The notes under the pieces were generated by a model. That model was given only the letters and a program-made list of their open reading frames with translations. It was not told the origin of the DNA and did no database searches. Shown one piece after another: positions 1,465 through 36,602 of a stretch of 64,000 bases of DNA. The stretch lies in contig JAGTXO010000085.1 of assembly GCA_019448385.1 (NCBI GenBank), positions 1 to 64,000 on the forward strand. The letters are read 5' to 3'. Each line of letters opens with the position of its first letter. The first letter of the stretch is position 1. The DNA comes from Diacronema lutheri. Taxonomy: Eukaryota > Haptophyta > Pavlovophyceae > Pavlovales > Pavlovaceae. Made by a program: the position numbers and the translations under genes.

Positions 1465-4400
1465 ATGGAGGACTCCGTGAAGGACGCTTTGCCCGGCGGG
1501 CGGGGCGGCTCGGACAGTTTCTCGCTGGCCCTCAGCACCATTCTGTCGCCGGGAGATACCCACCCCCACGTGGTCCCATCCACTTGCCTCATCGCCCTGC
1601 TGCGTTACGCGGATTTCGGCACGAGCAGGGTTAGGGTGGGCGACACGGGGTGCTCGCAGCATGCGCTCAAGGTGGCGCTGCGCAACCTGCGCAAAGCATG
1701 CGCGGATGCGGACCGGTTTGGGCAGGTGCTCGTGGTCGTGCTACCGCTCTGCCTCCGCGCGTCCAGCGGCCTCGTGCACTGGACGGCGGCGTACCTGCTC
1801 CTCGCGCCGCCCGCGCAGCGCGGCGCGCCGCCCGGCGCCGCGCTCGCCCTGCTCGCCGATTCGCGCACCTTGGGCAACGGCGAATCGGCGTACGCCACGG
1901 CGGCCGGCGTGCTCATCAAGAAGCTTGCGCAGCGCATCGGCAGAACAGCGCCGCCCATCGATGCCTTCAAGGCGCCCCCGCAGAGTGGGGCCGCGTGTTG
2001 CTTCGCCGCGGCAACAGTCGCGGCCGAGGTCGTGGCGAGCGCATCGACGCTCTACGGCCGCCGCGCGAGTGTCCTTGTCGACATCAAGAAGGCTTTGGAC
2101 GCGCGCCTCGCGCGCCTCACGACGGCCGCGTACGAGGAGACCCGCGCGCGCACGCTCCGCGCCGCCATCGGCGCTCTGCTCGGCGACCGCGCCAGGCGCT
2201 TCGGCCCGTTCACCCGCGAGGCCGCGCGGCTCGCCGAGGCCGCGCGGCTCGCCGAGGCGTGCGATGCCAGTGTCGGCGGATCCGCGCCCGACGGGCTGCT
2301 GCAGGCCGTCGAGGCGGCGCTGCGCGCGCCCGACGACCGCATCGCACGCACGGCCGCGCTCGACGCGCTCACGGGCGCTGCAGGCCGCGCGCTGTCGACG
2401 GCGGCCAGGCCGCGCGGCGCGGCGGCGCCAAGGCCGCCGTCGCGAGCGCCACCGCCGCGTGCGCCGCAGCGGCGCGCCGCCTCGGCGTGGGGGCCCCGAC
2501 CATTCAGCAGCCTCGGCGGGGGCGAGGGCGACGGGGACGATGGCGACGCCACCACCGCTGACGACGGGGAGGGCGCGGAGGACGGGGACGACGACCCCGC
2601 GGGCGCGGCGGCTGCGGCGGTGGCGACGGGCACGGCGGCGACGAGCGCGGTGGCGGCGGGCGCGGCGCCAACCTCGCCGGCGGCGGCGGACGGCGGTGGC
2701 TCGGCGCCGCTCGAACGCCGCTGCGTCTACACTGCGCCTGATGAGGGCGACGCGGACGCGCGCGTGTACGACGCCAAGGACCCCGAGCAGCTAAAAGCGG
2801 GCAGGGCGCGGCTACGGGCGAACAGCGGGCGCGCGCCCGCCGTGGTCGACACGCTTTTCGCGCACGCGACGGGCACGATCGTCACGCGGCAGCGCACGGA
2901 GGGCGTGACCGGCGCGGGCATGCACCACCTCGCCGCCCCGACGCAGGGCGCGGGGTACGGTGCCGTCGTGCGGGCCGAGCTGGGCGAGCCCGGCTTCGCG
3001 GGGACGACATGGCACATGACGTCGGGCGTGGAGAACCAGCCGCGCGCGGTACGAGCGGCCGCGCGCGCGTACGCGCACGACGGCTGGGGCGGCGTGTACA
3101 ATGCGCACGAGGACTTTGCCGCCTTCGAGGGCTTGCCGCGGCTCGCCGCGCCCGAATCGCTCGCGGCCATCGCCGGCGGGTCGGCGGACGCGGTGTTCTG
3201 CTGGCGGTCCGGCCGGTCCGTCATCGGCGAGGTGACGACGGTTCACTTCAATGGCGACCGCGCCGCCGCCATCGACCACGCGCGGGCGCTGCGCGTCAGG
3301 CCCGATTGGCGCTCGCAGCCCAGGATCTACGAGGCGGCGTGCGGCGCGGAGGGCACGGTGCTGCTCGTGTGGGTCGTGCCCGACCGTCACAAGAACCCGC
3401 GGCTGGACTGGGCGCCGATTCTCGTCGTGATCCACCTGCCCGCCGACCCCGACTGGCTCGCGCGCGCCACGCCGGCGATCGCGAAGGCGCGGCGCGAGGT
3501 CGAGGACGGACGCGCGCGCGCGGAGGCGCGCGGCGTGCCGCAGCACCTCGCCTACACGCTGAGCCCACGCTTCCGAGGCACCGCGCCGCGCGGAGCCGCG
3601 CGCGTGCCGCCGCGCCTCGGCGCGAGCGACGCGCGCGAGGCGCGCGCGCTCGCGGCGCTCGAGCCGGCGCTCATGTTCGCGCCGGCCTGGCGGCGCGCGG
3701 TGCGCGCGGCGAGCCGCGCCCCCGGCAGTGGCGCCGCGGCCGTCGAGCGCGCGCTCGCGCGCCTGCACAACGCGCTCGAGCCCGATGACGAGAGCGCGCC
3801 CGAGTCGACGCGCGTCGCGCCGCTCGCCGCCGCGCTCGAGCAGTCGGCGGGCTGGCCGGCGGGCACGGCGCGCATGGCGGCAAGCGTGACCAAGGGCCCC
3901 GGCGTCGGAGATGGCGCAGGTGGCGACGAAGTGACCAAAGTGGAGGAAACGGCGAAGACGAGCGGCGACGGCTGCACCGGCACGCCTCCTCTGCGCCCGG
4001 CCGCGCGCGCGGCCGGCGCGGCGGACGACGGAGGGGCGGCGGTCGTGGCGGGCGTCGAGGGCGAGCGCGACGCACTCGCCAAGACGGGTGCCGGCGGCTG
4101 CGACGACGACGCTCGCGAGCCGCTGTCGGCCGGCAAGCCCGGCGCACTCGCCGCCGCGGCGACCGTCGGGGGTCTCGGCGAGCTCGTCGGCAGCCTATGC
4201 GCGTGGCTGGCGCGCGGCGCGGCTGGCGGCGCCATCGCGGCCATCTCCCCCGGGACGGCCGCGCGCGGAGCAAACGGCACGCCGCAGCGCGCCGAGCCGC
4301 CGGCCGCCGGCGATCCCGTCGCTCCGCACGCGCGCGTCGCCGCTGCGGCGCCCTTGGCGGGCAGCGCGGCGGCGCCGTCGTCGGCCGCGCGCGACGCGCA

Positions 4401-7400
4401 GCGCGGCGTCGCGGGATTCGACGCGGCCGCGCACGCGCACGCGCGCGACGGCAGGCGGGCGGCACGGCGGATGCGCGAGCAGGAGGGGGCGGTGCACAGG
4501 GCCTTCCGCATGTCCCTCTGGCGCGACGCGACGTTTGTCGAGTTCGTTGAGAAGCTGCGCCCCGACGGCGGCGCGCAGCTGCTCGCGCGCGAGCCCACGC
4601 GGCGCGCGGCGGCGGTGCTGTGCGAGCTCGCGCGCGGCCGCGACGGCGCGAGCGGCGCGGCCGGGCTGCTGCACGAGATGAGAGCCGCCGATGCGCGCGC
4701 GCGCGAGGCCGCCAAAGCGGCGGAGGCAGCGCGGCTTGCGCACGGGACGCTGCGCATCGTGGCAACCGTGGCGCTGGGCGGTGCGGTCTTCGCCGGCATG
4801 TCAGCGCTGGTCGTTGCTTGCGCGGCGCGCACGGCGACCGGTGCGCTTTTTGGGGCCCGCCGCCCGCGGGCGGCCGCGCGCGGAGCCGACGACGCGCTCG
4901 GCACGCTGCAGCGCGCCAAGCCGCCGCCCGCCGACAAGGGCAAGCGCAGGCGCGCCAGAGCCAACGACGACCCCGTCGACGCGGCGCGCAAGGCCGTGGG
5001 CAAGGCGGAGGGCAACTGCCGCAAGGCAGCCCGCCGGCTGCACCTCGCTGCACTGGGCGAGGAGGAGGCGCAGCAGCGCGTGCTCGACGCCGAGGCGGCG
5101 GAGCAGCTGGCGCGCTCGCGCGAGCCGGCCGGCGGCTGGGTAGGCAGCGCGCGCGCGCGCGCGCGCGCGCGCCCCGCCGCGCGCGCGCCCGTCGATTGGC
5201 GTGCGCGCAGCGCAGAACGGCGCGCCAGCTCCGTCACCTGCGCGCCGCCGCGCCCGTGCCCCTCGCGCGCAGGGGCGCCCTGCGGACCTGCGGCTGCAAC
5301 AGGCGCACTTTGGCATGCGCGAAGATGCCGACGCGGATGTGCGCCGCGCGCACGAGGCGCTGCGCCGGGCGAGACAGGGTGTGGCGTGCGCCAAGGCCAG
5401 CGTGCGGCAGATGGAGGCGGCGTTGCTCAACGCGACGCGCTGCGCCACCGCGGTGCTCGCGCCGCGTGGCGTGCCGGAGGGTGACGAGCAGGCCGCGGCG
5501 AGAGAGCAGGCGGCGCTGGACCGGGAGGCGCCGCCGGCCGCGCAACGCGCGGCGCCGACGGCGCGCTCGCCCTCGGAGCCGCCGTCCGAGTGGGGCCCGC
5601 CAGCGGTCGGCCGGCGCCCGACGCCGCGTGCACTGTCGCACGCCGCGGGTCGCGGGGACGACAACCCGTTTGCGCCGCTCGCAACCGTCAGCGGCGATTG
5701 GTCGCCCACGCCGAGCTCGCGCTCGCCGTCCTCGCCGCCGCGGCAGCCGCCGTCCGACCGCCGCAGCGCGCAGCGTCGCAGCGCGCGCGCGCGGCCGCCG
5801 AGGCCGACCGTTTCGCCCGAGGACGCGCTCGCAGCCGAGCGCCAGGCGCGCGCGCTGTCGGAGCAGGCGGAGCAGAGGCGCGCCAAAAAGGCCGCCGCCA
5901 AGGCCGCGCGCCGCGCCGCGCGCGCCGCCGACAAGCGGACGGCGCGCGTCGTCCACGCGTGCGTAAGCGCCGCCTTGCGGCGCGTCTGCACGAGCGTCGC
6001 CACGGGCACGCCGCTCGCCGTGCTCCGCGAGCGCGCCGAGGGGCCGCGCGCGCCGAAGCCCGCGCCCGCGCCGCCACGCCGCGCAGCGGACGGCGGCCGC
6101 GCGCTCCGCCACGCGCGCCGTGCGGCCGCCGCGGCGGCGGAGCGCGAGGCGGCGGTGGCGGCCGACGCCGACGAGCGGTTCGAGCGGCAGCCCTCCGCCG
6201 CCCGGTTCGACGGCGGCGATGGCGGCGGAGGCGGCCACGTCGAAGCGAGCGCGCGACCGCGCGCCGGCGAGGCCGGCGAGGCTGGCGCGCACGGCGCGCC
6301 TGGCGCAGCGGGGACCCCGGCGGCGTCGCTCGCGTCGCGCAGCCCGTGTGATGCGCGCCGCACGGCACGCCTCCCGCACGCACGCGCCGCAGCCACCTGC
6401 GCACGCAACGGCGGCTGGGGTGGCAACGTCGGCGGCGACGTGTGCGGCGGTTGTTTCGGCGGCGGCGGCGTCCGTCGCGACGCCTGCGGCGGCGGCGACG
6501 CCACCTGCGGCTGCGGCGATGGCGGCGTCGGTGCTGGCGCTGGCGAGGCCCCTGCACACGGTGCGCCGGCGCGCGCGACGGCGTCGCGCTTGCTGCGCTT
6601 GCTCGGCGCGCCACGCGCCGTGCTCGGTGCGATGGCGCACGCCGCGGCCGTGTTGGCGCGCGGCGTGGCCGCAGCCGTCGCTGGCGTGCGCGCCGCCGCG
6701 CGCGCCGTGCGGCGCGCGCGCCGCCGAGCGCCTCGCGCGCGCCGCACGGCTGCGCGGCGGGCTCGCGGCCCGCCGATGCGCGACGTCGACGGCGCCCTGC
6801 GGCCCTCGCCGTCCTGGTTGCGCACACGCCTCGTCTGCGGCCGGCGCCTCGCGCCTCTGCGCCGCGCGGGCGCGCGCCCGCCGCCCGCACACGCCGCGCC
6901 GAGTTCCCGCGCGCGCGCTGCGCAACCCGACAGCGACGCGCCGGCGTGCGCGCCGCGGCGCTCGGCGCCTGTCGGTGCGCCGCCGCGCGCGCGTGGCCTG
7001 CGCGCGGCGCGCGCACGGCGCTTCCTCGACGTCGCCGGCCGCGCGGCGCGGAGCGCGCGCCTCGGCGCGCGCATCACGCGCCAGCGCACGCCGGGTTCGC
7101 CATCGGAGCCCTGCACGGCCGAGAGCGGCGACGGCGCGGGCGCCGGCGGCGTCGGCGCGGCGGCGCCTGGCGCGGCGACGATGCGCGCCACCGGCGCGCG
7201 CGCAGCGCGCGCTGCGGCGGCGGCGGTCGGTGGCGCCTCGCGTCTCGCGCGCCGCGCGATGGCAAGCGCCGCCGCCGCTGCCACCTCCATCGCCGGCGCT
7301 GCCGCCTCCACCGTCGCCGCCGCCGCCGTTGCCATCGGCGCGGCCGTCACGTCACCGGCGTTCGCCGCGGCGCGCGGCATGGCGGCCGCATGCGTCGCTG

Positions 7401-9720
7401 CCTGCGCCCGCCCCACCGCCGCGCAGGCGGCCGCGTCGCGCGCGCTCGGCGCGCTCTTCGTGCTCGTCGACGCGGCCGACGCGGCGGGCGACAGCGACGC
7501 CGCGCTCGGCGCGCTCGCGGCCGCGGTCGACGCGACGGAGCTGCGCCCGCCGCCGGCCTTTTGGCGCGCGGGCCGCGCCGCGGCGTACGCACCGCGTCCG
7601 CCGCCCCTCGACTCGGCGCGGCCGCGCTACAACCGGCGCGCGCGCGCACCTAGCCCTCCCGTCGCGGCCGCGCGGCGCAATCTCGCGCGCGCGGTGCGCG
7701 AGCTCACGCGCGCCGCGCGCGCTGAGCGCGAGCGCGCGCCGGCGCCGCGCGGCGCGCGCGGCGGCGTGCTCCACGCGCTGCGCGCGTCGCTCCCCGTGCA
7801 CGCGCGTGCCGCGCTCGGCACGGACGCGGAGCTGCGCGCGGACATCGCCGCGTTCGCGCGCGCGCGCCGCGAGCTGCACAGCCTCACCGACGCCGAGGTG
7901 GCGGCGCTCGCGCGCCCGGACGGGCCGCCGCTGCCCGTGCGGCTCGCGTGCACGGCGGTCGCGCGCGCGCGCGGCGTGACCGTGCTGCTCGACATCGTGC
8001 CGCGCGGCGGCGGCGCGCCCGAGCGGCTCGTGTGCCGCGCCCGTCGCCGCGGCGCCGCCACGCGCACGCCACGGCCGACAGCCGCCGTTATCGCGCGCGC
8101 GCCTTGCATAGCGGCGCGCGTTGGCCACACTGAGCCGGCGCGCGCGTGCGCGGGCGGATCGATCGGGGTCGCGCGCCTCCGTTCAGCGCGCCGCCGCTCT
8201 TGGCGTGGGGCGCGGCTCGACGTGCACACCCGCGAGCGGCTGGCCACACCGGTGCCAGGCCACGTCGTGGCCTGCGCCGCCGCCTCGGCCATCGGCGCGT
8301 GCGTCGCTCGCGCGCGGCTTGGGCTTGCACGGCTGGCGCGCGCGTGGCCCTGCGCCTCCGCTCCACTGGCCGCTGCTGCTGTCGCCTTCGCGCCTGCCGC
8401 CGACGGTGTTTTCTGCGCCCCGCTGGGCGCTCCTGCATCCGCCTTCGCGCCTGCCGCCGACGGTGTTTTCCCCGCCGCACTAGCCGCTGCTGCATCCGCC
8501 TTCGCGCCTGCCGCCGATTTTCCCGCCCCACTAGTTGCTCCTGCATTCGCCTCCGCGCCTGCCACCGACGGCGTTTTCCCCGCCCCACTAGCCGCTGCCG
8601 CTGCCGCGTCCGCGCCCGCCGCCGCGGGCGCGTCTTCCGCCCCACCAGCCATCGCCGCCGCGCCCGCCGCCAACGCGCGCACCGCCAACGTGCCCGTTGC
8701 CAACGAGGCTACCGCCACCGAACCAGCCGCCCTTGAGCTTCCCCTCCAACCCGCCAACTCGGCGCTGCTTGCGTGGGCGGGCGACGCGGCTGCGCGCCGG
8801 CTGGCCGCCGCCGCCGCGAGCGCCGGCCTCCCGCAGGCAGAGGTGGAGCGCATCGCCAGCGGCGACATGCTCGCCTCAACCGTCGACGCGTGCTGCGAGG
8901 TCGTGCTGCGCGTGCACGGGCAGGCCGGCGGCGGGCATGTCTGCCACGTGCCGCTCGCCGCGCAACCCGCGGTGTTTCAGGACGACGCCGAGCGCGCCGC
9001 GCTGCTGCACCGCCTGCGCAGCGAGGCGACAACGCAGGCTGTCATCGGCGTGTGGAGCCCGTCGGACGAGCGCGGCGGCGCGGGCGGTGACGACGGCGCG
9101 CAGCTCGCCTCCGGCCATTTCACCGCGTTGCGCCTTGTGCGCGTCGCGCGCGCGGGCGAGCATCGCTACGACGCGGTGCTCGTCGACACGCTCGCGTCGC
9201 CCTGCAGGCAGGCGCTCATGCTCGCCAAGGCGATAACTGCCACGCTGCACGCGGCGGGTCTCGACATTTCGCGCGTGCGCCGCGCGCTGCTGCTCAACGA
9301 GGCGGCGCAGCGTGGCGCGACGTGCGGCCTCGCGATAGTGGGCGCGCTCAACGACGCGCTCGCCGCGGCGGGCTGCTCGTCCGCGCCGCGCACGTTCAGC
9401 GTGGCGGACATGTACGCTGTCGGCGAGCGCCTCCGCGTCGCGCTGACCGGCGCGGCCAGCGATCGTGCGCCGGGCGGCGTCTGCGCGGTCACGAGCGCGG
9501 TGCGCGGCGGGGGCAGCCCCGATGGCGCCGAAACGCCGCCGCAGACGCGCGGCGCCAAGGCCGCCGCTGGCGTCACCGCCGCCGCCACCGCCGCCGCCAC
9601 GCCGCCGCCGCCCGCGCTGGGCGCCGCCGCCGCCGCCACCGCCGCCGCCGCCGCTGCTGCCGCCGCCGTGGCCGCGCCGCCACCGCCGCCACCGCCGCCG
9701 CCGGCCGGCGACGCGGGCGA

Positions 9721-9787
<67 letters not shown>

Positions 9788-12700
9788 GCCGCGCGCACGT
9801 TCTTGAAGCTCGCGCCCAGGGCGCGCGCGGCCGCCTCGGCGCGTGAGGCGTTGCGCGCCGCGTGTGCGCGCGCGGACGCGGCGGCGTCGTCACACGCGTC
9901 GGCGCCGCACGCGCCCGCCGGTGCGCGCCGCCGGCGGCGCGCGGGCGCAGGCGAGCTGGCGCTCGCGGCTGCGCGCGCGCTCGCCTCGACGGAGCACGGC
10001 GATTTGACGGACGACGCGCTCGAGGCCGCCGTCGAGCAGGAGCTGGGCGACGAGCGCGGCCAACTGCTGCTGTGCACGCGGGGCGCAGCGGCGCAAAGGC
10101 CCGCGCTTTGCCGGCTCCTGAAGCACGCGTGCGCGTCGGCGCGCGCGGCGAAGCGCGCGCAATTCACGGTATTCGTCGTGCGCGCGGCCACGCGCGGCGA
10201 GCGGGGGGGCGCCGCCGCGAGGCGCGTGGACTCGGTGGTCGAGCTGTCGTGCGCGCTGCACGAGAAGGCGGGCGCGCTCGGCGGCCTCCAGAGCGTCTGT
10301 GTGCGTGGCTTTGCCCTCGAGCGCCGCCGGACACTCGACGCTGGCGCCGAGGCCGGCGCGTCCGCCATCGGCCAGGACGAGCAGGTCGAGGCAGAGGCGG
10401 GCGAGGCGTCCGTCGCCGGCGTGACGATGGCCAAGCAGCTGCGTCAGTTTGCCGAGCAAGCTGCCCGCGACGACGTGCTCTTCCACGTCGCCGTGTCCGA
10501 GGCCGACGCCCACGCCCGGCTGGCGCGCGTTGCGGGTGACGATGTCGGCGCGTACAGCGTCGTGCTCGCAGTCGCCGGGCTCGTCTGGCTGGCCAAGGCC
10601 GACGAGGTTGCGCCGGCGGCCGCCCAGTCCGCCGCCGTGCCGCCCGCCGCCCCGCCTGCTGCCGCCACGTCCGCCGACGCCGAGCGCGACGCCTCGCCTT
10701 CCGACCGCCTGCGCGCGCTGACGCTCGCCGTGCGAGTCGCGCTCGCGCGCGGCGTGCTGCGCCACCTCCTCGCCGACGCGTCGCCGGGCGCGTCCGCGAC
10801 CGCTGGCGGTAGTTGCGCGACGCCCGTCGAGGCGGCCGCGTCCGACGCCGCGCCGCCCGCCACGGGCGTCGTGACGAGTGGCGTTGCGGCGGGCGCTGTG
10901 GCGGCCGCACCGGCTGCTGCGGGCGGCGCGATGGCGGGTGCATCGCCCATCGCGCGGCCGGCGAAGCGCGCGCGGCGCACGCTCACCGCCGCTCCAGCCG
11001 CCTCGGCCGTTGCGGCCGCTGGAGGCGCACGCGCGGGCGCACGCGGCGCGGCCGGCGCGCCTCGCGCGCGCGCCGCGCGCGCGCCGGCCGAGTACGTCTG
11101 GCTTGCCATCGCGCGCCGGATGCTGGCGGCGCGACACGCGGCGGCCGCGGGCGGCGACTTTGTCGCGTCGTGCGTCGCCGCGATGCAGGCCGAGTACGGC
11201 GACGGCTGTGCCGTCGTCGTCGGCGACGCGCCTGGTGACGCCTTGGTCGAGGCTGCGGCGGCGGCGCTGCTCGAGGGCAAGCACGCGGCGGTGAGCCTCG
11301 GCTGCGTCGACCGGCCGGCGGTGCTCGTCGTGCAGCGCGCCGTGGACGCGCCCACGTCGCGCGTGCACGGGTGGTGCGCGCACGCGGCGGGCGCCGCCGA
11401 GTTTGACGAGGGCGCCGCGCGCGACGTGTTCAACGCGATCGTCGAGCGCGCGTGGGCGCTGCGTCCGGACCCGGCCGACGGCAGCCCGCCGCCCACGCGC
11501 ACGTGGGAGGTCGAGCAAATCGCTGACGACGCGCCCGACCAGGCGGGCGTGGCCGCGCTGCGCGTGCTCTACGCGCTCGTCGCGGCGCACGGCCGCTACC
11601 GCTCGGCCGCCGCGCTCTTTGGCGCGATCGCGCAGCTGCACGCGCCCGACGCCGCCGGCGCGCGCGCGGAGGTCGTCGCGGCGGCGTGCGCGGTGCCGCC
11701 CGGCGCGCGGCCGGGCGCCGCGCCGGCGGCCGCGCGGGACGACGCGAGGGAGCGCGCATGGGAGGGCGCTCAGATCGCCGCGCTCGCCGTCGGCGCGGAC
11801 GCTGCGCGCAGGCGTGTCGCGCCCGTGCGCGCGCTCGTCGACGCGCTCGGCACGCCGCCGACCTCGGCGATCACGGGCGGGCCGGCGGTGCGGCTCGCGG
11901 GCGCGGGCGACGGCGGCCACGGTGCACGGTGGGTGGGCGGGCAGGCGGCGACGCCCGCCGAGCAGCTGCCGAGGGAGCTGCTGCGCGCCTACCACGAGGC
12001 GGTGCTGTGCGTCACGCCCGGCAGCCTCCAGCTCGGCCCGGCGGCGCTCGACGCGGTCACGCGGCCGCGCGAAAACGACACGCTGGAAGGCCTCCTCGCG
12101 CGCGTCAGCTGGCAGTGCGGCGCGAGGGCGAGCACGTGCGCCATGCTCGCCACGTTTTCCGAGCAGGCGGGCACCGGCTCGCGCGTCGCGCTCAAGGCCC
12201 TCCGCACGAGCTCCGACCTGGCCGGGCTGACGGCGGCTGCGGTCGGGCAGCAGGCGCCGCAGACGCCGCCGCCGCCGCTGCTCGTGATGCTCGGCCGCTG
12301 CCCCAGCCCGCTCGTCGGCGGTGGCCTCTTCCCGCCCGACCGCGCGACGGGCGAGCCGGCGGTGCACGCGGCGACGTCCGAGCTCGCCGTCGAGCTGCTG
12401 CGCGACGCGCGCGCGCTGGCCGGCACGGACGGGCGGCTCGTCGTGCTGTGCCTCGAGGCGTCCAACCCGCTCTGGTTCTGCCCCAAGGTGCGCGAGCTCG
12501 AGCTGCCGCGGACGCGGTCGGACGGCGTGCGCGCGTCCGGCTGCACCTGCCCTGCGACGTGCAGCGATGCGCGCGGCGCGGCGGGTGGCGCTGCCCGCGG
12601 CGCATCGACGCGGCCGGCGGCGCGCGCGATCAACAAGGCGGTGCTCGACCACTTCGTCGCGCTTTTCGGCCGCGAGGGCTTCGCGACCTTTGAGTTTGCG

Positions 12701-15700
12701 GGCGGCGGCGAGGCGAGCTGGCTGTGCGACAGCGCGGCCGGCACGACGACCGTCGCGGCGTGCGCGTCGCTGCCGCCGCGCATGGGCGATGGGCAGCTGG
12801 CCATCCGGCGGCACACGCTCGGCACGGGCGCCGACGCGCCGGCGCACGCCGTCGTCTCGCTCCGCGTCGCGCACGTGAGCCACGCCATCCGCCGCGCGGC
12901 GGACGACGGCGGCGCGCGCGCCGAGCGGATGGCGCGCGCCGCGCGCGCGTTTTGCGATGTGGCGGCCGCGCTGCGCGTCGACGCGATCCTGGCGGAGGTG
13001 CCCGAGGACCGCCCGACGGGCACGCCCTTCCTTGGCGGGCTGCTCAAATTTTGGGACAAAGACCACGGGAGCTCGACGGCGCCAGCCACGCTCGCGCTCG
13101 GAGACGTGCGCGAGGTGGCCAAGCGGACGGCCGACGCAGCGGCCGGCCGAGCGGACGAGGTCCCTGCGGCTGGCCGTCCGCAGGTCGCGGCGCGCGCGTG
13201 CGCTGGCGCGATTGGCGGCGGCGCGGGCGCGGCGGGCGCCTCGGACGCTGCGCCGCGTGCACTGGCGGGCGCGTCGGGTGCGCGCACGGACGGCGGCCCT
13301 GCCGACGCACCGCGCCAGCTGGAGAGCCGCTACGGCGAGGCGAGCAAGCTCGACCTACCCCAAGATTCCACTACGGGCCGCGTCCTCGACGCTCGCGAGG
13401 CCCAGGACCGCGCGCGCGTGCCTGCTGCGCCCGACGGCACAGCGCTGCGCCGCGTGCTCGACGCCGTCGGCGCGGGCGCGCCCGCGCAGCGCAGCCCGCG
13501 CTGGCACGACGAGCGATGGGAGGAGGTCACGGGCAGCAAGGTTGGCGACGTCGTGAACGACAACGCCGGCGTCGCGCACGAGACGCTCACCGACGAGTAC
13601 GTGCACCGGCGGCGGCGCGAGGTGCGGACCAAGGCGACGACCGCGGGCATCCTCGGCGAGGCCGTCGCGCTGCGCAAGCTGGCGGCCGCGTACGGCATCA
13701 CCGTCGTGTGCAACCTGCCGATGGTGCGTGCGGACCCGCACGACAAGAGCGCGCCGTTCGCCTTCTCGCCGGACGGGCTCGCCATCCTCCCCGAAAACAA
13801 CGAGCAGGTCCTCGTCGAGGTGAAGACGCTCACCAAGGCGGGCGCCACGGCGCACGAGGACGGGCCGCCGCAGCCGCACCGCGATCAGCTGCAGCTCGGC
13901 ATGCACGTCCTCGGCGTGAGCAAAGCGCTCTACGTGCAGTACCTCAGGCACGAGGACCGGATCGTCGTGCACGTCGTGACGCGCGGCGCCGGCTGGCTTG
14001 CATTCGCGCAGCCGAGGGTGCAGGCCTTCTGGGCGCGCGTCGTCGAGCGGCGCGCGCGGCTCGAGCGCGCGCGCGCCGACCACCCGGCTGCGAGCCGGCG
14101 GCACCGGCGGCAGCAGACGCCGGCCGGGCCGCCGCTCGTGCTCGCGCTGGACGGGCGCATCCCCGCCGCGCGCGCCGCCGCGCTGCACGCCGTCGCGCAC
14201 GGCACCGCGAGCGCGGCGGCGGTGGCGGCGACGGCGGCGACGGGCGACGCGACGGCGTTGCAAGACGCGATCGCGGCGCTGCGCGCGCCCGTCGGCAATG
14301 CGGCGATCGACAGCGCAGCGCGTGCGGAGCGCGCGGCCGTCGAGCGGGCGATCGCGTACCTCGGGCAGCCGGCAGGCGACGCCGCCGCCCGCGGCACGGC
14401 CGAGGCGGCCGAGGAGGAGAGGACGGTCGACGCCGACATCTGCGCGTTGCTGCACCAGCTCGGCGCGAGCGTGGCGCACGTGCACGTCGAGGACGCGGAT
14501 TGCGTCACGCGTGAGCACTGGGGCGAGGCGGTGCTCGCTGCAGCGGGCGACCCGTCGAGCGCCCCCGCCATTTCGAGCGTCATCGTCGCGCACATCGTGC
14601 GGCTCGCCGGCTTTGGCGTCGAGCTCCCGCAGTCGATTCGCGTCGCCCCCAGCACGGCCGACTGGCACGAGGGCTGGCTCGACGTGCAGTGCGTGCTGCT
14701 GCGCACGCGCCGGCGCGGGCGGCGCGACGACGACTTTGTGGCCGTCGTCAGGCGCGGTGGGCGCTGGTTTGCGTGCGAGCCCGGCCGCGCGCGGCGGCTG
14801 CAGTGGCGGTCGGTCCTGCGCCGCGCGCGCGGCGGCGTCGACGGGACCGGCGAGGAGGCGTTCGCGGTCGTCTACGTGCGGCGCGGCGACGCGGCCGGCG
14901 ACGCGGCTGGCGACGCGCAGGCCGAACGGGCGCGCGGCGGGCGCGCGCGCAGGCGCACGCGCGGCGGCACGCGCAAGCGCAAGCGCGGCGCCTCCGCCGG
15001 GCTCGAGGCGGCCGCGCCCGCCGGCGCGCCGGCGGGCGCTGCTCACCGCCCGCCCGCCAGGCGTGCCACGGTCGCCGCGCGCACCACGCGCTCTGTGACC
15101 GACGCGCGGCACTCGGCGCCTGCCGCCACGGTTGCACCTGTCTTCGACTGGCGCGCCGGCCGCCCGCCCCCTGCCGCCGCCGCCGCCGCCAAGCGCGGCC
15201 AGGCGCTCGAGCCGGGGCAGTTCGCGCGGCCGCGTGGGCGCGCGCCATGGGGCAAGGTCTGGGACAGAGTCTCGGGTGCGTGGGCGGACAAGCCGACTGG
15301 TGCTGCCGTCGCCGCCGCGCCGCCGCCGCTGCCGCCCGCCGCCGCGCCGCCGCCCGCCGCCGCGCCGCCGCCCACCGCCGCGCCGCCGCCCGCCGCCGCG
15401 CCGCCGCCCGCCGTCGCGCCGCCGCCCGCCGCCGCGCCGCCGCCGCCGCCGCCACCGGCGGCGCTCGGCCGCCGGCAGCACGTCGGCGCGGGCGGCAGCG
15501 CGGCGGGCCGGCGGCTCGCGGCCATCGCACGGCGGCAGCGCGGCGTGCGCGCGCCGCCGCCCGCCGCGCGCTTCCTCGCCACGCTGCCGCCACCGCCACG
15601 CGACGGCCTCGCGCGCACGAGCAAGCAGGCGCGCGCGAGGCGCAACGCGGACGGACGGCCGGCGCACGCGCGCGCGGCCAACGCGCGCGCCTTCTACCGC

Positions 15701-18700
15701 GGCGTGGAGCTCGGCGTGCACGCGACGCGCGCCATCGTCGACGCGCGCCACGCCGACCTGCCGCAGGCCGTCTTCGTGGCGGAGGCGCGGGCGATCGTCG
15801 CGCGCTCCGCCGGCGGCGGCGCGCTGCTCGCGCCGGACGACGTGCGCGACCTGTGCGACGCGCAGACGGACGCCGATCGCGCTGCGATCTGGGCGTCGGT
15901 GGGCGCGCACGAGGCGACGCGCATCTTCGCGCTCGTCACGCGCAACGCGAGCTTGGCGGGCGCGGCGCTGCTCGTGCTGCACACGCCGGCGGGCGCGCCG
16001 GCGCGCGCGCTCGGGCTCCTGGCGACGCGCTCGCGCGCGCCGTCGACGGGCGCGCCGCGCGACGCGCACAGGGCGCTGGTGCAGCGGTTGGACGTGCTGA
16101 TGGACGCGATCGCCGCGGCGCGAGGCGCGTCGCCGCTCGAGCTCGAGCTCGCGCTCGCGCCCGAGCCGCAGAGCGCGTGCAACGCGCGTGCGGCCGCGCT
16201 GCTCTGCCTGCAGGCCGTCGCGGACGCGAGCGGCCGTCCCGCCGCTGAGGACGCGCTGGCCGCGCTCGACGACGCGCGCGGCATCGACCGGCACTGCCAC
16301 GCCGTCCGGCAGCAGATCGAGGCGAAGCTCGCGTGGCGGCGCGCCGACGGCGCCGTCGGCGTTGACGGCGCCGACGGCGCGCCCGCGCTCGCGCCTGCCG
16401 CCGCACCGCCGGCGTGCGCGCCGGCGCACGCTGCCGGCGAGGCGGCGGTCGACCAGGCGATCGTCACGCGGGTGCGCGACGCGCTGCGCGCGTGGGCGAC
16501 GACTGGCACCGCGCCCAGCGCGGCGGTGCTCGACGACGCCTGCGCCGCGTACACGGCCCGCGCACGCGCGCGCAAGGACGCGCGCACGGCGCTGGGCCCG
16601 ACGCGCGCGGCCGAGCTGCTCGCCGCGGCCGCGCGCGGCGGAGCCGACGGGGCGGATGCCGCGCGCGCGCTGCTCGGCGGCACGCCGCGCCTGCTCGTCG
16701 TGCTCCTCTGCGTGCCCGTCGCCGCGCCGTCCGGCGAGCCGCCGCGCCCGGTCGGGCTGCTCGTCGCCGACCGGCCGACGGACGACTCGCGCCCGGCCGC
16801 GCTCGTGCGCTACGACTTTGCGCCGCTCGACGCGGACGTGGCCGTCGCGGTCGGCGCGCATGCCGTCGCGCTGGCCAGTGCGATCTGGCCGCTGCTCGCG
16901 GCCGAGGGGGAGCCGCGGCCATCGCCCGTCGTGCGCTCGCAGCCGCGCGGCGGCGACGATGGCGCGCGTGCGCTCGCAACGTTCGCGTGCCTCGACGCGC
17001 TGATGACCGCCAGCGTCGGCGCGCACGGCCTCGCGGGCGGCGCGGGCATGCTGCCCGCGCTGGTCGCGCGAGGCGCCGCGGCCGCCCAGCGCGAGCGGCA
17101 GCTGCGCGCGGCCGCCGAGAGGCTGGGCGGCACGGTCGCTGGGTGGCCGGACACGGGCGCGAGCGCGGCGGGCGCGAGCGTCGACGAGGAGGCGCGCACG
17201 TACGAGGTCGAGGCGGTCGTCGACGAGCGCCGCAAGGCGGGCAAGAGGGTGACGTTCCAGTTCCGGATCAGGTGGCGGGGCTACGACGAGAGCGCCGACA
17301 CGTGGGAGCCTGAGGCCAACGTGAGCAGCGACCTCGTCGCCCAGTTCCGCAAGACGCGCGACGAGCAGAAGCGGCGCGCGGGCGGATCGGGCAGCAGCAG
17401 CGGCGGCGCGGGCGCGGCGTCGGCATTGGCGTCGGCGCCGCTTCGCGCGCACGGCGTGTCGGGCGCCGCGGGCAAGCGCGCCGTGGCGGGTGCCGCCGCG
17501 AGCGCGCGCGACGCCGCGGGCGCGCGCGCGCCGAGCGTTCCCCGCGCGCGCGGCGTCGAGCGCGCGCGCGTGGACGAGCCCGCTGCGCCGAGCGCGCGCG
17601 CCGCCGGCGGCGCGACGGCGCGCACGCGCGTCAGCGTGCTCCCGGGCTTCGTGGTCAAGCGCTCGACGCTCAACGCGGGGCCGCAGGCGGTGACGGCGCA
17701 GCCCGGTGCGCGGAAGGAGCTGCGGCGCATCGCGGCGGCCGTGCACAGGCTCACGACACAGGCGTACCGCGTCATCAACAAGGTGGTGCGCGACGAGGCT
17801 GCGGTGGCGAGCGCGCAGGCCGTCGGCGCGGCGTCGGGCGGCCCGTCGACCAGCGTGCACACGTCGACCACGATGGACAAGGGAACCGTCCGTGCGATCT
17901 TCTCGGCCATCGGCTGGCACAAGGACGAGAGCACGTACGGTGCAGCGCCCCGAGGCAAGCCCGCCGAGCAAGCCGCCGCGCAGACCAAGGCGGCGACGGC
18001 GCGCGCCGTCGGCGAGATGGCCGAGGGCGTCCAGCCCGTCTGCGCGGTGGGCCTCACGGAGATCCTCGAGGCGGAGGCGACGCAGGTGTCCACCGCGTGC
18101 CTGATGCATCCATCGCGCGTCGTGAACGGGCTGCTCCGCGACGTCGTCCGCGCGGCAGTCGAGCGCGACGAGGCGCTCGTCGCGCTGCCCGAGATGCAGC
18201 GAAACGCGCGCGTGCGCGAGCTGTGCGAGCGGCTGCTGCGCGGCGACGTGGAGGGCGCGCGCGTCGGCTGCCCCGCCGCGCTCGACCGCCACCTGCCCGA
18301 CATGGTCCTCCACAAGATCGACTACAAGTGCACGCCCACGAAAAGGTGGAACTACGACCGGCACACGACGCGCTACTTCCTCGTGCAGATCCGCACCCTG
18401 CAGCACGTGGCCGAGGGGCAGGCGCTGCTCTGCCGGCTCGCGCACATCCACACGCAGCTGACCGGACGGCCGCCGCGGTACAATGTGGCGCCGCTGCGCA
18501 CGCACAATGTGCGCGCGAGGCGTGGCTGCCGCTGCCGCCGCCGAGCGCCCAAGCGCGCGCGCCGCCGCCGTGCGCGCCGCCCCGCGGCCAGGTTGGTCAC
18601 GCGCCCGCGCGCTCGCGCGCCGCGCGCTGCGCGCAGGTGCCGCGCAACGTGCGCCTCACCGCGAACGCCATCTGGGAGACGCTCCCGGACGACGAGCGCA

Positions 18701-20361
18701 AGGAGCTGCGCGCGCGGCTCAAGGCGCTGGACCTGCGCGACCACGATGGCGAGCCGATCAAATGGACAGGCACAAACGGCAACACCCCGCCGATGTCGGA
18801 CGTGCGTGTCAGGTACGCGGTCTTTGCGACGCGCTTCGACATCTCCAACCGCGTCTTCGACTACGCCGGGCGCGAGCGGCCGCCGGCCGATCTGCCGTGG
18901 CACGCGCGGCGCTCGTGGGTTGGCCTCGCGCCGCTGCCGCGCGTGCCGCTTCCGGGCCGGCAGCCCGTCAAGTCGGTGGTGACAGATGGCGTCGCCGTGC
19001 ACGCCGTCGGGACCGTCCTCGTGCCGAAGGCGCAGGCGCCGGCCGGCGGCTCGGGCGTCCTGCACCGCTGGCGCCGGCCGGACGGGCGCATCGCCGTCGC
19101 GCTCGGCTCCGAGCTGCGGCGGGCGATCGACGTCGAGGCGGCGGTCGTCGTCGCGGCCGACCCGAACATGGGCAACATCACCACCTACTCTGCGCACGTC
19201 GGGCGGGCGGCCGTCTGGCGGCAGTTCACGCAGCGCGCGCGCGCGCGCGCCGCGGGCTTTGCGCGCGAGACGGCCAAGACCAACGCGGCGCGGCGGCGCG
19301 TGCGCAAGGACGGGCGCGGCGGTGAGTTCAGCGTGGAGGCGGACGAGGCGCGGCTTGGCGAGGCGCACAGCGCCAAGGTGCTCGACGCGGGCAAATACAT
19401 CGCCTTCCACCGCGAGAGCGCGCGGGTGCGCGAGCGCGCCGCCGAGCACGTGTACGACGCGCCGGCGCGCCGGAAGGAGCGCTGGCGGCGCGACAGCGGC
19501 GGGCGGTCCAACGCGGCGCGCGTCGCCGAGGCGCTCATCGCGGCGCACTGCGTCGACGGCGTGACGCGCGACCGGCTGCTCGTGTGCGTGGGCAAGTGGC
19601 TGCGCGACCACAAGGGCGCGCAGCCCAAGGGCGCGCCGCCCGCCTTCCAGGTGGGGCTGCTGCGCGAGCTGCGGCGGCGCGGCGTCGCGGCCGTCTTCGT
19701 GCCCGAGCCGTACACGTCGATGCACTGCTCGATGCCGCGGCTCGCCAAGGGCGGCAGGCTGCAGCGCTGCGGCGCGGAGCTCGCGCAGAACCCGCGCCTG
19801 CCCGTGGCAAAGGGCGGCACGCGCACGGTGCACGCGCTCGTCATCTGCCCGGCGTGCAACGGCGGCAAGAAGCCCGTGCACCGCGACTACAACGCCGCGC
19901 GCAACATCTTCTACGACGTGCACGACATGGCGGCGCACGCGGCCGGGCGCGACACCACGTCGACGCCTGAGCGCTTTGCCCTCGTGCTCGCCTGGTGGGC
20001 GCGCGGCGAGGTGTGGGAGCGTGAGGAGCGCATGGTGCACGGCGAGGGCGACGACTGCGACGACGAGTGCGACGGCGACGACGAGGGCGACGACGAGGGC
20101 GACGACGACGACGACGACGATGGCAGCGGCGACGGCGGCGGCGGCGACGGCGAGGGCGACGGCGACGGCGACGGAGGCGGCGGCGGCGACGACGACGATG
20201 ACGGCGGGGGAGGCGGCGGCGGCGACGGCGGTGGCGACGACGGCGGCGGGCGCGGCGGCGGTGGCGGCGGCGGCTCTCGCGCCCGCACCCCCGCCCGCGG
20301 AGCTGCCAGCGCCAGTGCCGGCGGCGGCAGCGCGCGCGGGCCGAAGCGCGGCCGGCGTTGA
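1465..20361 (+). CDS. giant C48 peptidase / YqaJ nuclease / chromodomain / Fanzor polyprotein (three exons)
   Basis: Three exons join in frame: 1465-5139, 5273-18508 and 18637-20361, about 6,211 residues. The first intron (133 bp, GTAGGC..GCGCAG) and the second (128 bp, GTGCGC..GCGCAG) are both phase 0, and each restores a continuous domain: a coiled-coil-like Ala/Glu/Arg stretch at the first and the Fanzor N-terminal motif at the second. Order: C48-like peptidase (1.52-2.06 kb), low-complexity linker, an unassigned domain (2.7-3.57 kb), one hydrophobic segment that could be a membrane helix (4.75-4.83 kb), helical region, Arg/Ala-rich stretch of doubtful coding quality (5.8-8.7 kb, could hide more introns), second C48-like peptidase (8.75-9.46 kb), Ala/Pro tracts, decayed C48-like modules, YqaJ nuclease (13.47-14.01 kb), chromodomain (17.2-17.37 kb), Fanzor (17.64-19.96 kb), an acidic Asp/Gly tail and a terminal basic KRGRR. 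No transposase, integrase, polymerase or capsid domain is visible. Alternatively several adjacent genes happen to be in frame. The Fanzor and YqaJ parts are firm; the single-polypeptide model is less sure. Confidence 0.65.
1522..2060 (+). other. domain: N-terminal Ulp1/C48-like cysteine peptidase, catalytic set complete
   Basis: Within the large protein, residues about 20-195. The order of the Ulp1/adenain clan active site is present: a hydrophobic strand then His105-Trp106 (codon 1777-1779), Asp132-Ser133 (codon 1858-1860), the oxyanion Gln173 (1981-1983) and Cys179 (1999-2001), with Gln to Cys spacing of six as in Ulp1. Ulp1-type peptidases cleave SUMO/ubiquitin-like tails or process polyproteins, and they recur in eukaryotic DNA transposons. 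The Cys is followed by Phe rather than the usual Gly, so activity is not certain. Confidence 0.6.
2700..3570 (+). other. domain: unassigned globular region in exon 1
   Basis: This stretch has a balanced, globular-looking composition (Trp, Tyr, His, Phe all present), unlike the Ala/Gly/Pro linkers around it. It contains GTTWHMTSGVENQPRAVRA, a GGVYNAHEDFAAFEG segment, and the strand-like SVIGEVTTVHFNGDRAAAID followed by hydrophobic strands LLVWVV and ILVVIHL. I do not recognise the family. The alternation of strands and charged turns would suit an alpha/beta fold, possibly nuclease-like, but no catalytic set can be named. Confidence 0.35.
8750..9460 (+). other. domain: second Ulp1/C48-like cysteine peptidase, catalytic set complete
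   Basis: The pattern repeats that of the N-terminal module: a strand ending in SGHFTALRLVRV with the His codon at 9116-9118, then YDAVLVDTL with Asp at 9185-9187, then AAQRGATCGLAIVGALN with Gln at 9308-9310 and Cys at 9323-9325, followed by the Gly typical of the DCG motif region. It is preceded by a helix containing LLAWAGDAAARRL, as expected for the Ulp1 fold. Two complete peptidase modules in one protein suggest self-processing or removal of SUMO/ubiquitin-like modifiers (inference). Confidence 0.65.
9555..9800 (+). repeat. GCC/GCG trinucleotide tract coding Ala and Pro runs
   Basis: An almost pure trinucleotide stretch inside exon 2, with the longest (GCC)n run at about 9719-9783. It is read as long Ala runs separated by Pro runs. 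It acts as a linker between the second peptidase module and the next part of the protein and is a likely length-variable site. Confidence 0.8.
11230..11690 (+). other. domain: decayed Ulp1-like module
   Basis: The segment keeps the outline of the peptidase modules: a strand AVLVVQRAVDAP, a His-containing turn VHGWCAH, a helix, a second strand TWEVEQIADD, then the DQAGVAALRVLYALV block in the place of the Gln..Cys helix. The nucleophile position carries no Cys. It looks like an inactive copy of the same fold. This is a pattern judgement by eye, not a profile match. Confidence 0.3.
13470..14010 (+). other. domain: YqaJ-type PD-(D/E)XK exonuclease
   Basis: The signature order of the YqaJ/lambda-exonuclease family is complete: QRSPRWHDERWEEVTGSKVG (the Q-S-x-x-W..R..T-x-S start), a helix with ALRKLAAAYG, then FSPDGLAIL with the metal-binding Asp at 13772-13774, LVEVKTL with Glu at 13817-13819 and Lys at 13823-13825, and a final helix with HRDQLQLGMHVLGV supplying the Gln. 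These enzymes digest or process double-stranded DNA ends during recombination, and family members occur in phages, large DNA viruses and mobile elements. All catalytic residues are present, so it is predicted active. Confidence 0.8.
14640..14880 (+). other. domain: possible USP/C19-like C-terminal half lacking its catalytic His
   Basis: DDDFVAVVRRGGRWFACEPG followed by RRLQWRSVL and, after a loop, AFAVVYVRRGD resembles the end of ubiquitin-specific peptidases (GHY-x-A-x-V-R..g-x-W-x..D..V..AY-x-L-x-Y-x-R). The His of GHY is replaced by Asp, so if homologous it is inactive. Weak evidence; the match covers only strands. Confidence 0.25.
15310..15450 (+). repeat. Pro/Ala minisatellite in exon 2
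   Basis: A tandem array read as PPPAAA repeats (unit 18-21 bp, about six copies), flanked by globular sequence on both sides. It separates the YqaJ part from the downstream decayed peptidase-like modules. Confidence 0.7.
15930..17030 (+). other. domain: two further decayed Ulp1-like modules in tandem
   Basis: First module, about 15,930-16,250: a strand RIFALVTRNASLAG, a loop, LGLLATRSR, a helix, then PEPQSACNARAAALLCLQAV, which keeps the Gln..Cys helix but lacks a clear His and Asp. Second module, about 16,685-17,030: LLVVLLCVPVAAP, VGLLVADRP, ALVRYDFAPLD, a helix and RSQPRGGDDGARALATFACL, again with Gln but Asp in place of Cys. Both look like remnants of the fold seen at 1.5 and 8.8 kb. Judged by eye only. 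Confidence 0.3.
17198..17370 (+). other. domain: chromodomain
   Basis: YEVEAVVDERRKAGKRVTF, then FRIRWRGYDESADTWEPEAN, then DLVAQFRKTRD gives the full chromodomain pattern: Y-x-V-E-x-[IV], the aromatic-cage WRGY and TWEPE, and the C-terminal helix. Chromodomains bind methylated histone tails and in transposable elements steer insertion into heterochromatin. Its place just before the Fanzor suggests chromatin tethering of the nuclease (inference). Confidence 0.85.
17640..19960 (+). other. domain: Fanzor (TnpB-like RNA-guided nuclease), spanning the second intron
   Basis: Family markers in order: the RYNVAPLRTHN/VPRNVRLTANAIW block (the F-x-x-x-P-L..I-x-I-D-like motif), interrupted exactly by the 128-bp intron at 18,509-18,636; FDISNRVFDYAG and VVTDGVAVHAVG (the TDG motif); RuvC-I VVVAADPNMGNITT with Asp at 19,159-19,161; the canonical RuvC-II position is Gly (LLVCVGKW, 19,591); the alternative Glu in FVPEPYTSMHC is at 19,705; zinc-ribbon Cys codons at 19,726, 19,768, 19,846 and 19,855; RuvC-III HRDYNAARNI with Asp at 19,885. 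From the first Asp to the TS pair there are about 184 residues, within the published Fanzor rule (D-X(125,275)-[TS][TS]-XX-C4 finger-X(5,50)-RD). Fanzor1 proteins lie inside diverse eukaryotic transposons and cut DNA guided by an omega RNA. All nuclease residues look intact. Confidence 0.88.
20040..20300 (+). repeat. GAC/GGC tract coding an acidic Asp/Gly tail
   Basis: Trinucleotide-rich end of exon 3, coding Asp runs then Gly/Asp runs, followed by a Ser/Ala/Gly linker and the terminal GPKRGRR, which could act as a nuclear localisation signal. It follows directly on the Fanzor RuvC-III motif. Confidence 0.75.
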
Positions 20362-20740
20362 CGCACGGCCGAGCCGCGCAGCGGTCGACGCTTTGCGGGC
20401 TCTGCCCAGGTCGCGCGCGGCTGGCGACGCGTGCCGCGCGCGGCACGACCGTGCACGCCGCCACCCGTGGCCGAGCGCGCCGCACCAGCCGGCCCGCTCC
20501 AACCGCCGTGCGGATCACGGACGCTCGCTACGGCTCGTCGGCGCGCGTCACCTGCGCCAGCGGCCACGGCGCCGTCTGCTCCGGCCTCGTCGCGAGCAGC
20601 CCGACCGCTGCTCGCCGCCCGCACGCCGCCGCAGCAACGCTGCGCGTCGTGCTCCCCCGCTCGCCAAACGCGAAGAGCTCCCTCACAAGGACGTCCTTCC
20701 GAACGGCCCGCGCTGCACTCGGGGCGCGATCGTGCCCCTG
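20362..20740. other. 3' flank of the Fanzor gene with two strong palindromes
   Basis: No gene seen. An 18-bp perfect palindrome CGTGCCGCGCGCGGCACG lies at 20,430-20,447, about 70 bp after the stop. A second hairpin has a 9-bp perfect stem, GCGAGCAGC at 20,592-20,600 and GCTGCTCGC at 20,607-20,615, with a 6-base loop. In TnpB/Fanzor loci the guide (omega) RNA is read from the 3' end of the gene into this flank, so the hairpins are candidates for a structured RNA, a terminator or an element end. GC-rich DNA yields palindromes by chance more often than average. Confidence 0.4.
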
Positions 20741-20858
20741 ATCGGATTTGGCTTGACCATCTATACATGTACTCATACGGAACATGTTGAGCGCCGGCGC
20801 CCGCACTGCTCACCTTCTAGACCTCCGTTATTTGAACGCATCTCTCGAACGGCACATC
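20741..20858 (+). promoter_or_regulatory. AT-richer promoter of the hemerythrin gene
   Basis: Base composition drops sharply in GC here. A TATA-like TATACAT sits at about 20,762 and the palindrome AACATGTT at 20,781-20,788, followed about 70 bp later by the ATG at 20,859. It is the clearest TATA-like promoter in the window. Confidence 0.45.
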
Positions 20859-21717
20859 ATGGGCAGCGGCGCCGACGGGGGGAGCAAGGACACCAAGGCG
20901 AGCAAGGACGCGAAGGGCTGCGAAGGGCTGGGTGGGCGTGGCTGACTCGGGCTGGTTCTACGCGCACGAGGCGATCCGCGTGGATATCTCGGACGCGCTG
21001 CAGATCCTCGAACGCCTCGCGGCGACGCCCTCGCCTGCGCCGTGGGAGTCGGCCGCGCTCGCCAAGTGGTGGCACTTTGTCTACGAGTTCATCGAGCACC
21101 ACCACGACAACGAGGAGCAGCTCTTCTTTCCGCGGATCGCCGAGCGCGTCGAGCTGCCGCCGCGCCTCACCGCCGACCACAAAACTATGCTCGCGGCGCT
21201 CAAGGAGACCGACGCGATCGTGAAGGCCGAGACGGCCAAGCCGCCGGGCACGGCCGACTGGGCCAAGGCCGCGACGAGCCTGCGGCACGTCGAGGCGATC
21301 ATACTGCCGCACCTGCTTGAGGAGGAGCATGACACGCTCCCTGCGATGATGGCCAACTTCACCGCCAAGGAGCTCGAGCCCACCGAGCGCGCGATGATCA
21401 AGGCGCAGCCATGGTGGTCGCTCGGCCATCTGTACCGCCGCTTCCGCGACGACATGGTGGTCAAGCAACGGCACGCGGTGGGCAGCCTTGGCGTGCCCAG
21501 CGTCGTCTTCGGCGCGCTGATCCGCCCCAAGATCGAGAAGTACCAGGCCGAGGTCGGCTGGCTGGTCGAAGAGCTCAAGCAACCGCAGAGCCACGCCTTC
21601 TGGGAGGAGCAGCGCGCGCTCTGGCACGCACGCTCGGGCTTTGGCGGCTGCTGCGGACCCAAGCCGCGCGGCTCGTTTGCGCTGGCGCAGGAGGTGGGGA
21701 GCGGCACGCGCAAGTGA
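20859..21717 (+). CDS. hemerythrin HHE-domain protein (5' frame broken by a 10-bp tandem duplication)
   Basis: The body, from 20,932 on, is a clear HHE cation-binding four-helix protein of about 261 residues: FYAHEAIRVD (first His), FIEHHHDNEEQLFFP (H..H-x-x-x-E), LTADHKTMLAAL, and ILPHLLEEEHDTLP, the His/Glu ligands of a di-iron site. Such proteins bind oxygen or iron or respond to redox stress; cellular role unknown here. The body has no in-frame ATG upstream. The only good ATG (20,859) is out of frame by one base, and between them lies an exact 10-bp tandem duplication (CGAAGGGCTG twice, 20,911-20,930). With one copy the start would read MGSGADGGSKDTKASKDAKG and run into WVGVADSG. So this is a real frameshift allele or an assembly error, or the protein starts elsewhere. 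C-terminus is a Cys-containing tail (GFGGCCGPKPRG). Confidence 0.85.
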
Positions 21718-36523: not shown

Positions 36524-36602
36524 ACGAAATATGCCGCGGTTACGCCGCCGCTCAGCAAGTATTTCGTATTTGAGCCGCCGCCGCCACCGGCTCCAAACGG
36601 GC
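36524..36602. promoter_or_regulatory. 79-bp divergent promoter with a 10-bp inverted repeat
   Basis: Between the HAD start and the LRR start. ATACGAAATA (36,522-36,531) is repeated as its exact reverse complement TATTTCGTAT (36,560-36,569), 28 bp apart, in DNA that is otherwise GC-rich. The left arm overlaps the HAD start codon. It looks like a paired factor-binding site serving both genes (inference). Confidence 0.45.

Follow-up and report, generated by a model that had tools for sequence, protein, structure and literature searches.

Helitron1 transposons have 5′-TC and CTRR-3′ ends and insert between A and T. Helitron2 elements have hairpins at both ends together with asymmetric inverted repeats. 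Most DDE elements carry inverted repeats and make a target duplication, and Starships are giant eukaryotic transposons, tens of kilobases in length, that carry accessory enzymes.

Published work describes Helitrons that carry Fanzor1 and related Mariner elements in which a nuclease or methyltransferase gene adjoins the transposase (PMC3627910), Helitrons that encode an OTU peptidase, RPA, or an AP endonuclease and Helitrons that have captured fragments and reach 39 kb (PMC6431247), and Helitron copies located at contig edges (PMC5148889). The SpuFz1 locus is ∼2.1 kb in length, consists of a single frame, and has inverted repeats (PMC10432273). In the genome paper for Diacronema lutheri, 22.9% of the genome is given as repetitive, with LTR and LINE sequences making up 32.7% and 3.8% of the masked bases, respectively (PMC8379373).

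The locus studied here lies at positions 1465 to 20361 (+ strand) of a 64-kb window that spans the opening stretch of contig C23 in the 103-contig D. lutheri assembly. In the literature searched (most subscription journals and preprints lie outside it), no combination of a Helitron with YqaJ was found, and the element was not described in what was found on Fanzor, Helitrons, haptophytes, algae, Ulp1, and chromodomains. The same holds for the accessible parts of individual papers retrieved by topic: PMC6338049 (Fanzor, YqaJ, chromodomain, and Ulp1), PMC5963040 (Helitrons and haptophytes), PMC10711439, PMC5148889, PMC3627910, and PMC10432273 (Helitrons, Fanzor, and algae), PMC6431247 (giant transposons, algae, Ulp1, and YqaJ), and PMC4289320 (Helitrons with a chromodomain or Ulp1 protease).

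Ends, copies, and sizes of the element

The locus corresponds to the right-hand two thirds of a ∼31.05-kb transposon with dispersed copies. Positions 1 to 20766 of the window (+ strand) hold the right ∼20.8 kb of one ∼31-kb copy, and the left ∼10.3 kb is absent because contig C23 begins inside the element; in other copies, homology runs left beyond the window to a sharp, common left end (C9:1127562). The element starts with CTATATACGG (the left end sequence being read as CTATATACGGCGCGG) and finishes with CATCTATAC. The right terminus, GATCGGATTTGGCTTGACCATCTATAC, occupies 20740 to 20766 (+ strand) and in the copies read is followed by unrelated DNA, often AT.

Genome searches allowing ≤2 mismatches placed the 27-base right end at 217 positions and the 30-base left end at 212, with 0 matches for reversed-pattern controls. 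From the 56 left ends on contigs up to C50, 35 could be matched to a right end among those listed; 21 stayed unpaired because the right ends came from 100 listed places, a contig stopped short, or an end was lacking. The paired copies (n = 35) had sizes of 30.96 to 31.08 kb (16 copies), 29.1 to 29.2 kb (6 copies), 26.0 to 26.5 kb (3 copies), 21.4 to 21.6 kb (9 copies), and 12.7 kb (1 copy). Their mean length of 27.35 kb multiplied by 212 gives, by extrapolation, 5.8 Mb, or ∼13% of the 43,492,796-base assembly.

For divergence, the 30 best-scoring copies from each search were compared (of 248 candidates in one and 595 in the other, 40 each were scored), and their identity is biased upwards by this choice. 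Within this set, all 29 other left-end loci had 0 to 4 mismatches in 3.9 kb, together with two or three short indels; the indels were all upstream of position 1465, and two of them distinguished the window copy from the other 29. The 29 right-end loci, again the best scoring, showed 5 to 19 differences over ∼2.07 kb, with indels only in L021. An earlier note, made from the window sequence, had proposed a mobile module, and mobility is borne out: each of the two fixed ends recurs at more than 200 dispersed positions, and the compared copies have diverged very little. The transposon family has probably been recently active, the compared, best-scoring copies being nearly identical. Two features of these alignments were set aside as evidence: the last 405 bp hold few substitutions, but copies were ranked by similarity there, and C is overrepresented ahead of the left end, which is biased by ranking in the same way.

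The outermost 150 bp of the two ends (minus the last base) share no exact inverted repeat of ≥7 bp, and the best asymmetric inverted repeat matched at 11 of 14 positions, a value equalled in 28 of 500 shuffles. Hairpins can be drawn at both ends, with folding no better than that of shuffles (z of approximately −0.9). The CTATAC at the right end resembles CTATATAC at the left end, in direct orientation. Both flanks were compared in four copies (C17, C4, C71, and C35), none of which has a target duplication of ≥3 bp; possible shared flank bases were GT in C4 and one A in C17. AT directly followed the right end in 11 of 29 flanks (duplicate flank L021 dropped), compared with a background of 2.5%. 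The right flanks compared had no common stretch of >80 bp. The ends differ from the 5′-TC/CTRR-3′ form of Helitron1, and an AT after the right end differs from the canonical A/T junction.

In L077 and L078 (C2:68590 and C5:121485), the left end keeps ∼21 and ∼4 bases and then skips ∼75 and ∼93, respectively, which removes most of a terminal palindrome (sizes counted by eye). The right flank of L033 and copies L073, L077, L081, and L087 adjoin the same short host sequence, CGTTAGT, which suggests insertion into or beside a dispersed sequence. Contigs start or stop 0 to 1 base from the right end of the element at C1:1, C12:1, C8:187138, C3:444900, C14:457505, and C32:562155, and the family seems to break the assembly.

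Gene content of the element and its neighborhood

The gene order in the 31-kb copies is left end, PIF1 helicase, USP-type deubiquitinase, a gene of 6.2 kilocodons, and right end. The PIF1 match lies ∼4.57 kb from the left end in these copies and ∼3.0 to 3.2 kb from it in most of the 21.5- and 29-kb copies (84.7 versus 89.7 bits); overall, the distance is 3.0 to 3.5 or 4.5 to 5.0 kb. Fanzor is found ∼0.9 to 1.1 kb from the right end in 35/35 paired copies. PIF1 and Fanzor occur together in 31/35, on the same strand in every case (opposite orientation, 0), and both are present in each of the five size classes. The absence of PIF1 from the other 4 may reflect the scoring of the best 150 of 414 PIF1 candidates. 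For PF07282, 150 of 306 candidates were scored, giving at least 148 places genome wide; 117 of these scored 30.5 to 31.5 bits (window copy, 31.3), and 31 scored higher. The deubiquitinase downstream of PIF1 matched PF00443 (UCH/USP) with 33.5 bits (cutoff, 23.9; L069) and occupies a separate frame on the same strand. Two frames in the left 1.4 kb (L070) had no Pfam family. The parts of the element that were read lie on either side of C9:1129001-1132999 (∼4.0 kb, 3.1 kb of which precedes the PIF1 match). The 12.7-kb copy (C28:71582-58928) retains both ends, Fanzor, and PIF1, the last within an open frame of 2,282 codons.

The Helitron N-terminal Rep profile (PF14214) matched one place in the genome, outside the 35 paired copies; introns split matches. 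The Phage_integrase model for tyrosine recombinases matched 16 places, with 0 inside the 35 paired copies, and a tyrosine recombinase was therefore rejected as the mobility gene. Two of the 16 matches (C69:95472-95945 and C17:194914-195378) are found 1.5 and 4.5 kb beyond left ends of the element, maybe by chance.

Beyond the element, the window holds a frame with a hemerythrin domain at 20932 to 21717 (Pfam, 1.8e−11), the listed start codon of which is 166 bases past the right end of the element, and a match to HAD-family hydrolases at 35087 to 40153 (− strand). Tandem arrays are located at 22954 to 24357 (30-bp units, 1.4 kb), 40209 to 41104 (pyrimidine-rich 87-bp units, 0.9 kb), 41769 to 44851 (61-bp units, 3.1 kb), and 62760 to 64000 (171/257-bp units, continuing off the window end).

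The 6,211-codon reading path

Three exons on the + strand splice in frame to give 6,211 codons and a stop: exon 1 (1465 to 5139; 1,225 codons), which begins at the first ATG past an in-frame stop, exon 2 (5273 to 18508; 4,412 stop-free codons), and exon 3 (18637 to 20361; 574 codons and the stop). The predicted introns at 5140 to 5272 and 18509 to 18636 both have the form GT...AG. This three-exon path of ∼6,211 residues had been claimed from the sequence and was confirmed, as no stops break it and both introns have the expected borders. Its length is in itself weak evidence because, at the 72 to 84% GC of the first 21 kb of the window, wrong frames stay open too, and long open frames also occur at the locus on the opposite strand and in wrong frames. 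GC content by codon position is more telling: along the path, position 2 has the lowest GC in all 21 windows and position 3 the highest in 19 (with one tie and one lower), whereas the values are flat upstream of the path, and neither intron has this order. With its frame, its two GT-AG introns, and a coding type of GC by codon position, the reading path is real; a single polypeptide from it is a prediction.

The coding signal is weakest at ∼6.2 to 8.9 kb, a stretch of low complexity with a tandem repeat at 8358 to 8624, and the path could be two genes meeting there. A gene for an N-terminal peptidase and another for the YqaJ, chromodomain, and Fanzor parts, instead of a polyprotein, would fit this dip, as well as the alternative in which exon 1 is left unspliced and its open frame extends to 5484. 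Against such a division stand the 13.2 kb of exon 2 that are stop free, the codon-position GC that holds to one frame, and the GT-AG borders at both junctions, and we regard separate genes as somewhat unlikely. This question is independent of that of mobility, and the probabilities attached to the two are not additive.

Domains along the reading path

Two Ulp1/C48-like catalytic motifs, assigned at the motif level, were identified at 1777 to 1998 (H105, D132, Q173, and C178) and 9116 to 9325 (H2507, D2530, Q2571, and C2576), both on the + strand. The His-Asp-Gln-Cys pattern had exactly two matches in the six frames of the 64-kb window, both within the giant protein and both with identical D-41-Q-5-C spacing; in shuffles, at least one match was seen in 5 of 2,000 and two matches in 0 of 2,000, for a pattern that was written post hoc. 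We take this order and spacing to be Ulp1-like. No C48 profile was matched in the giant protein by Pfam under relaxed limits, and a PDB sequence search with both regions returned nothing relevant. Genome wide, PF02902 gave 9 matches in 7 places, with 0 inside the 35 end-to-end copies, and AlphaFold2 run without an alignment on the two regions had a mean pLDDT of 42, too low to be useful. Of the two C48 peptidases that had been claimed, the catalytic motifs and their spacing stand, and recovery by Pfam profile or PDB sequence does not. Further peptidase-like repeats in exon 2 are by-eye candidates that we do not claim. In exon 1, a second nuclease-like stretch (VIGEVTT; 2950 to 3750) was noted by eye, without profile or PDB support, and a PDB sequence search with exon 1 regions yielded nothing relevant.

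A YqaJ/RecE-type PD-(D/E)XK exonuclease domain is located at 13478 to 14053 (+ strand; SPDG...VEVK...QLQLG), combining PD-(D/E)XK-type residues with a profile match. It matched the RecE-like exonuclease family phrog_434 of PHROG (E value, 2.2e−16), TIGR03033 (E value, 2.2e−6, under the cutoff of that model), and Pfam YqaJ (15.1 and 20.8 bits, under the cutoff of 22). A PDB sequence search with this region gave nothing relevant. The chromodomain, at 17201 to 17353 (+ strand), scored 44.8 bits with Pfam Chromo (cutoff, 25.1; 1.2e−11), and 46 PDB sequences, named chromodomain proteins, were matched at an E value of ≤1e−3, CDYL and HP1 chromodomains being among these neighbors.

Fanzor, spliced over intron 2, extends from 17642 to 20100 (+ strand; approximate borders). 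It matched PF07282 (Cas12f1-like_TNB; 19669 to 19908) with 28.5 bits, above the cutoff of 26.3, scored 14.4 bits with NCBIfam guided_TnpB, far under the cutoff of 100, and aligned weakly with Cas12f1 (E value, 0.25). The RuvC-like D, E, and D residues (at ∼19159, 19705, and 19885) and a C4 zinc finger were placed by eye. The YqaJ, chromodomain, and Fanzor parts named in the earlier note are therefore upheld: profile searches recovered both nucleases, the YqaJ domain through phrog_434 though under the Pfam and TIGR03033 cutoffs and Fanzor through PF07282 with its D-E-D residues and zinc finger seen by eye, and the chromodomain was well above its cutoff.

Among copies, the Fanzor exon (18700 to 20361) had 14 synonymous and 13 nonsynonymous distinct substitutions. 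The nonsynonymous share (13/27) compares with an expected 72% (P = 0.007; dN/dS of ∼0.36), the events not being independent, and it shows purifying selection on Fanzor. Exon 1 had 7 nonsynonymous substitutions among 8 and 1 synonymous, with no sign of selection.

Downstream of the stop, the noncoding right end of the element (20362 to 20766, + strand) would, judging by its position and by analogy with TnpB/Fanzor, be where to look for a guide RNA, with the flank past 20766 as the guide. Rfam had no match to this right end at the gathering score, and a fold of 20600 to 20766 was no better than those of shuffles. A tblastn search of phage records with Fanzor exon 3 found no relatives. A second Fanzor family is present in the D. 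lutheri genome, with the motif DRDFNAARN; the eight loci read (L001 to L008, on C11, C1, C4, C9, C25, and C69) share about 95 to 99% DNA identity among themselves and only ∼30% identity with the window Fanzor across ∼115 residues.

Proposed mechanism and alternative explanations

We consider it reasonably probable that the locus belongs to a family of giant Helitron-like DNA transposons in D. lutheri that has been active recently and works as outlined here. A Helitron fits on account of the PIF1 helicase, the lack of inverted repeats, and the lack of a target duplication; the family is called Helitron-like, rather than Helitron, because Rep was not found and the ends are noncanonical. The PIF1 helicase and a presumed rolling-circle initiator would peel off and copy one strand, which would insert without target duplication. 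Fanzor, guided by an RNA from the right end, may cut sister chromatids or target sites that are still empty; the exonuclease joined to it could resect the break, leading to repair from an element-bearing copy. The chromodomain may tether the machine to methylated chromatin, and the peptidases would process the long precursor and, together with the USP, remove SUMO or ubiquitin marks. These activities are inferred, as is the idea that the parts work together in a single machine. A stronger version, in which the transposon has its own RNA-guided recombination machine (Fanzor breaking DNA, a RecE-type exonuclease of the same polypeptide resecting it, the chromodomain picking chromatin, and the peptidases releasing the parts) and relies on both strand peeling and guided break repair for its copying, is speculative and quite unlikely. 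A self-contained module, as the earlier note had put it, is plausible to the extent that helicase and Fanzor are present in every size class, but it falls short in the mobility enzyme; the suggested role in defense found no support.

The same giant transposon may instead owe its movement to another enzyme, whose gene would lie in the ∼3.1 kb before PIF1 or whose fold went unrecognized, with PIF1 as an accessory. The Rep profile without a match in the 35 paired copies and termini unlike those of Helitrons point in this direction, as does the direct-orientation likeness of CTATAC and CTATATAC, which recalls site-specific recombinase elements such as Crypton (PMC3627910). This reading is unlikely but carries some weight, given that PIF1 is present in each size class, that tyrosine recombinases have 0 matches inside the paired copies, and that the inverted repeats or target duplication typical of DDE elements are lacking.

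RNA-guided copying could also be the main engine, with Fanzor cutting, the fused RecE-type exonuclease resecting, repair copying the element in, and the helicase assisting. The retention of Fanzor in all 35 paired copies, the purifying selection acting on it, and an open reading path shared by nuclease and exonuclease agree with such a role. The right flanks compared, however, have no common stretch of >80 bp, and spread has therefore mostly reached new sites, a pattern not accounted for by homing; we hold this version to be very doubtful. YqaJ also occurs in large DNA viruses. Fanzor is likewise known from them (PMC3627910), and an endogenous virus or host defense locus was considered on these grounds, but each fixed end has more than 200 dispersed places, two single-protein scans of IMG/VR contigs, which reach close relatives only, found no relatives, and no capsid, polymerase, or packaging family was among the Pfam matches in the parts searched. 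A viral or defense origin is extremely improbable, and the Helitron-like family is the reading we retain.

Approximately 200 copies of a 31-kb transposon in a compact alga of 43 Mb would be exceptional, and the element could account for much of the unassigned repeat fraction in the D. lutheri genome paper (PMC8379373). The predicted polypeptide would physically join Fanzor to an exonuclease that resects DNA ends and to a chromatin reader, and the role of Fanzor for its transposon becomes directly testable in a culturable alga.

Comparison with known systems

The D. lutheri element shares tens of kilobases of length and accessory enzymes with Mavericks, Teratorn, Terminons, and Starships. It differs from them in lacking polymerase, capsid, and reverse transcriptase families (by Pfam, in the parts searched) and in having no tyrosine recombinase match inside the paired copies. 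In Fanzor1 elements (Spu-1 and CRe-1 to 3), a RuvC/TNB nuclease is likewise found near the right end of the transposon, with the right flank as the presumed guide, whereas the Fanzor described here terminates a giant open reading path inside 31 kb. The exonuclease resembles RecE/YqaJ phage enzymes in its profile match and PD-(D/E)XK-type residues, but it is embedded in a eukaryotic transposon protein beside an RNA-guided nuclease.

The closest likeness is to Helitron, Helitron2, and Helentron elements, with which it has in common a PIF1 helicase, extra genes, and ends at which no inverted repeats or target duplication were found; its copies sit at contig edges, as Helitron copies do in PMC5148889. 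Unlike these elements, it has noncanonical ends and no Rep that was found, is 31 kb in length, carries a USP in a separate frame, and joins Ulp1-like motifs, a RecE-type exonuclease, a chromodomain, and Fanzor in one reading path.
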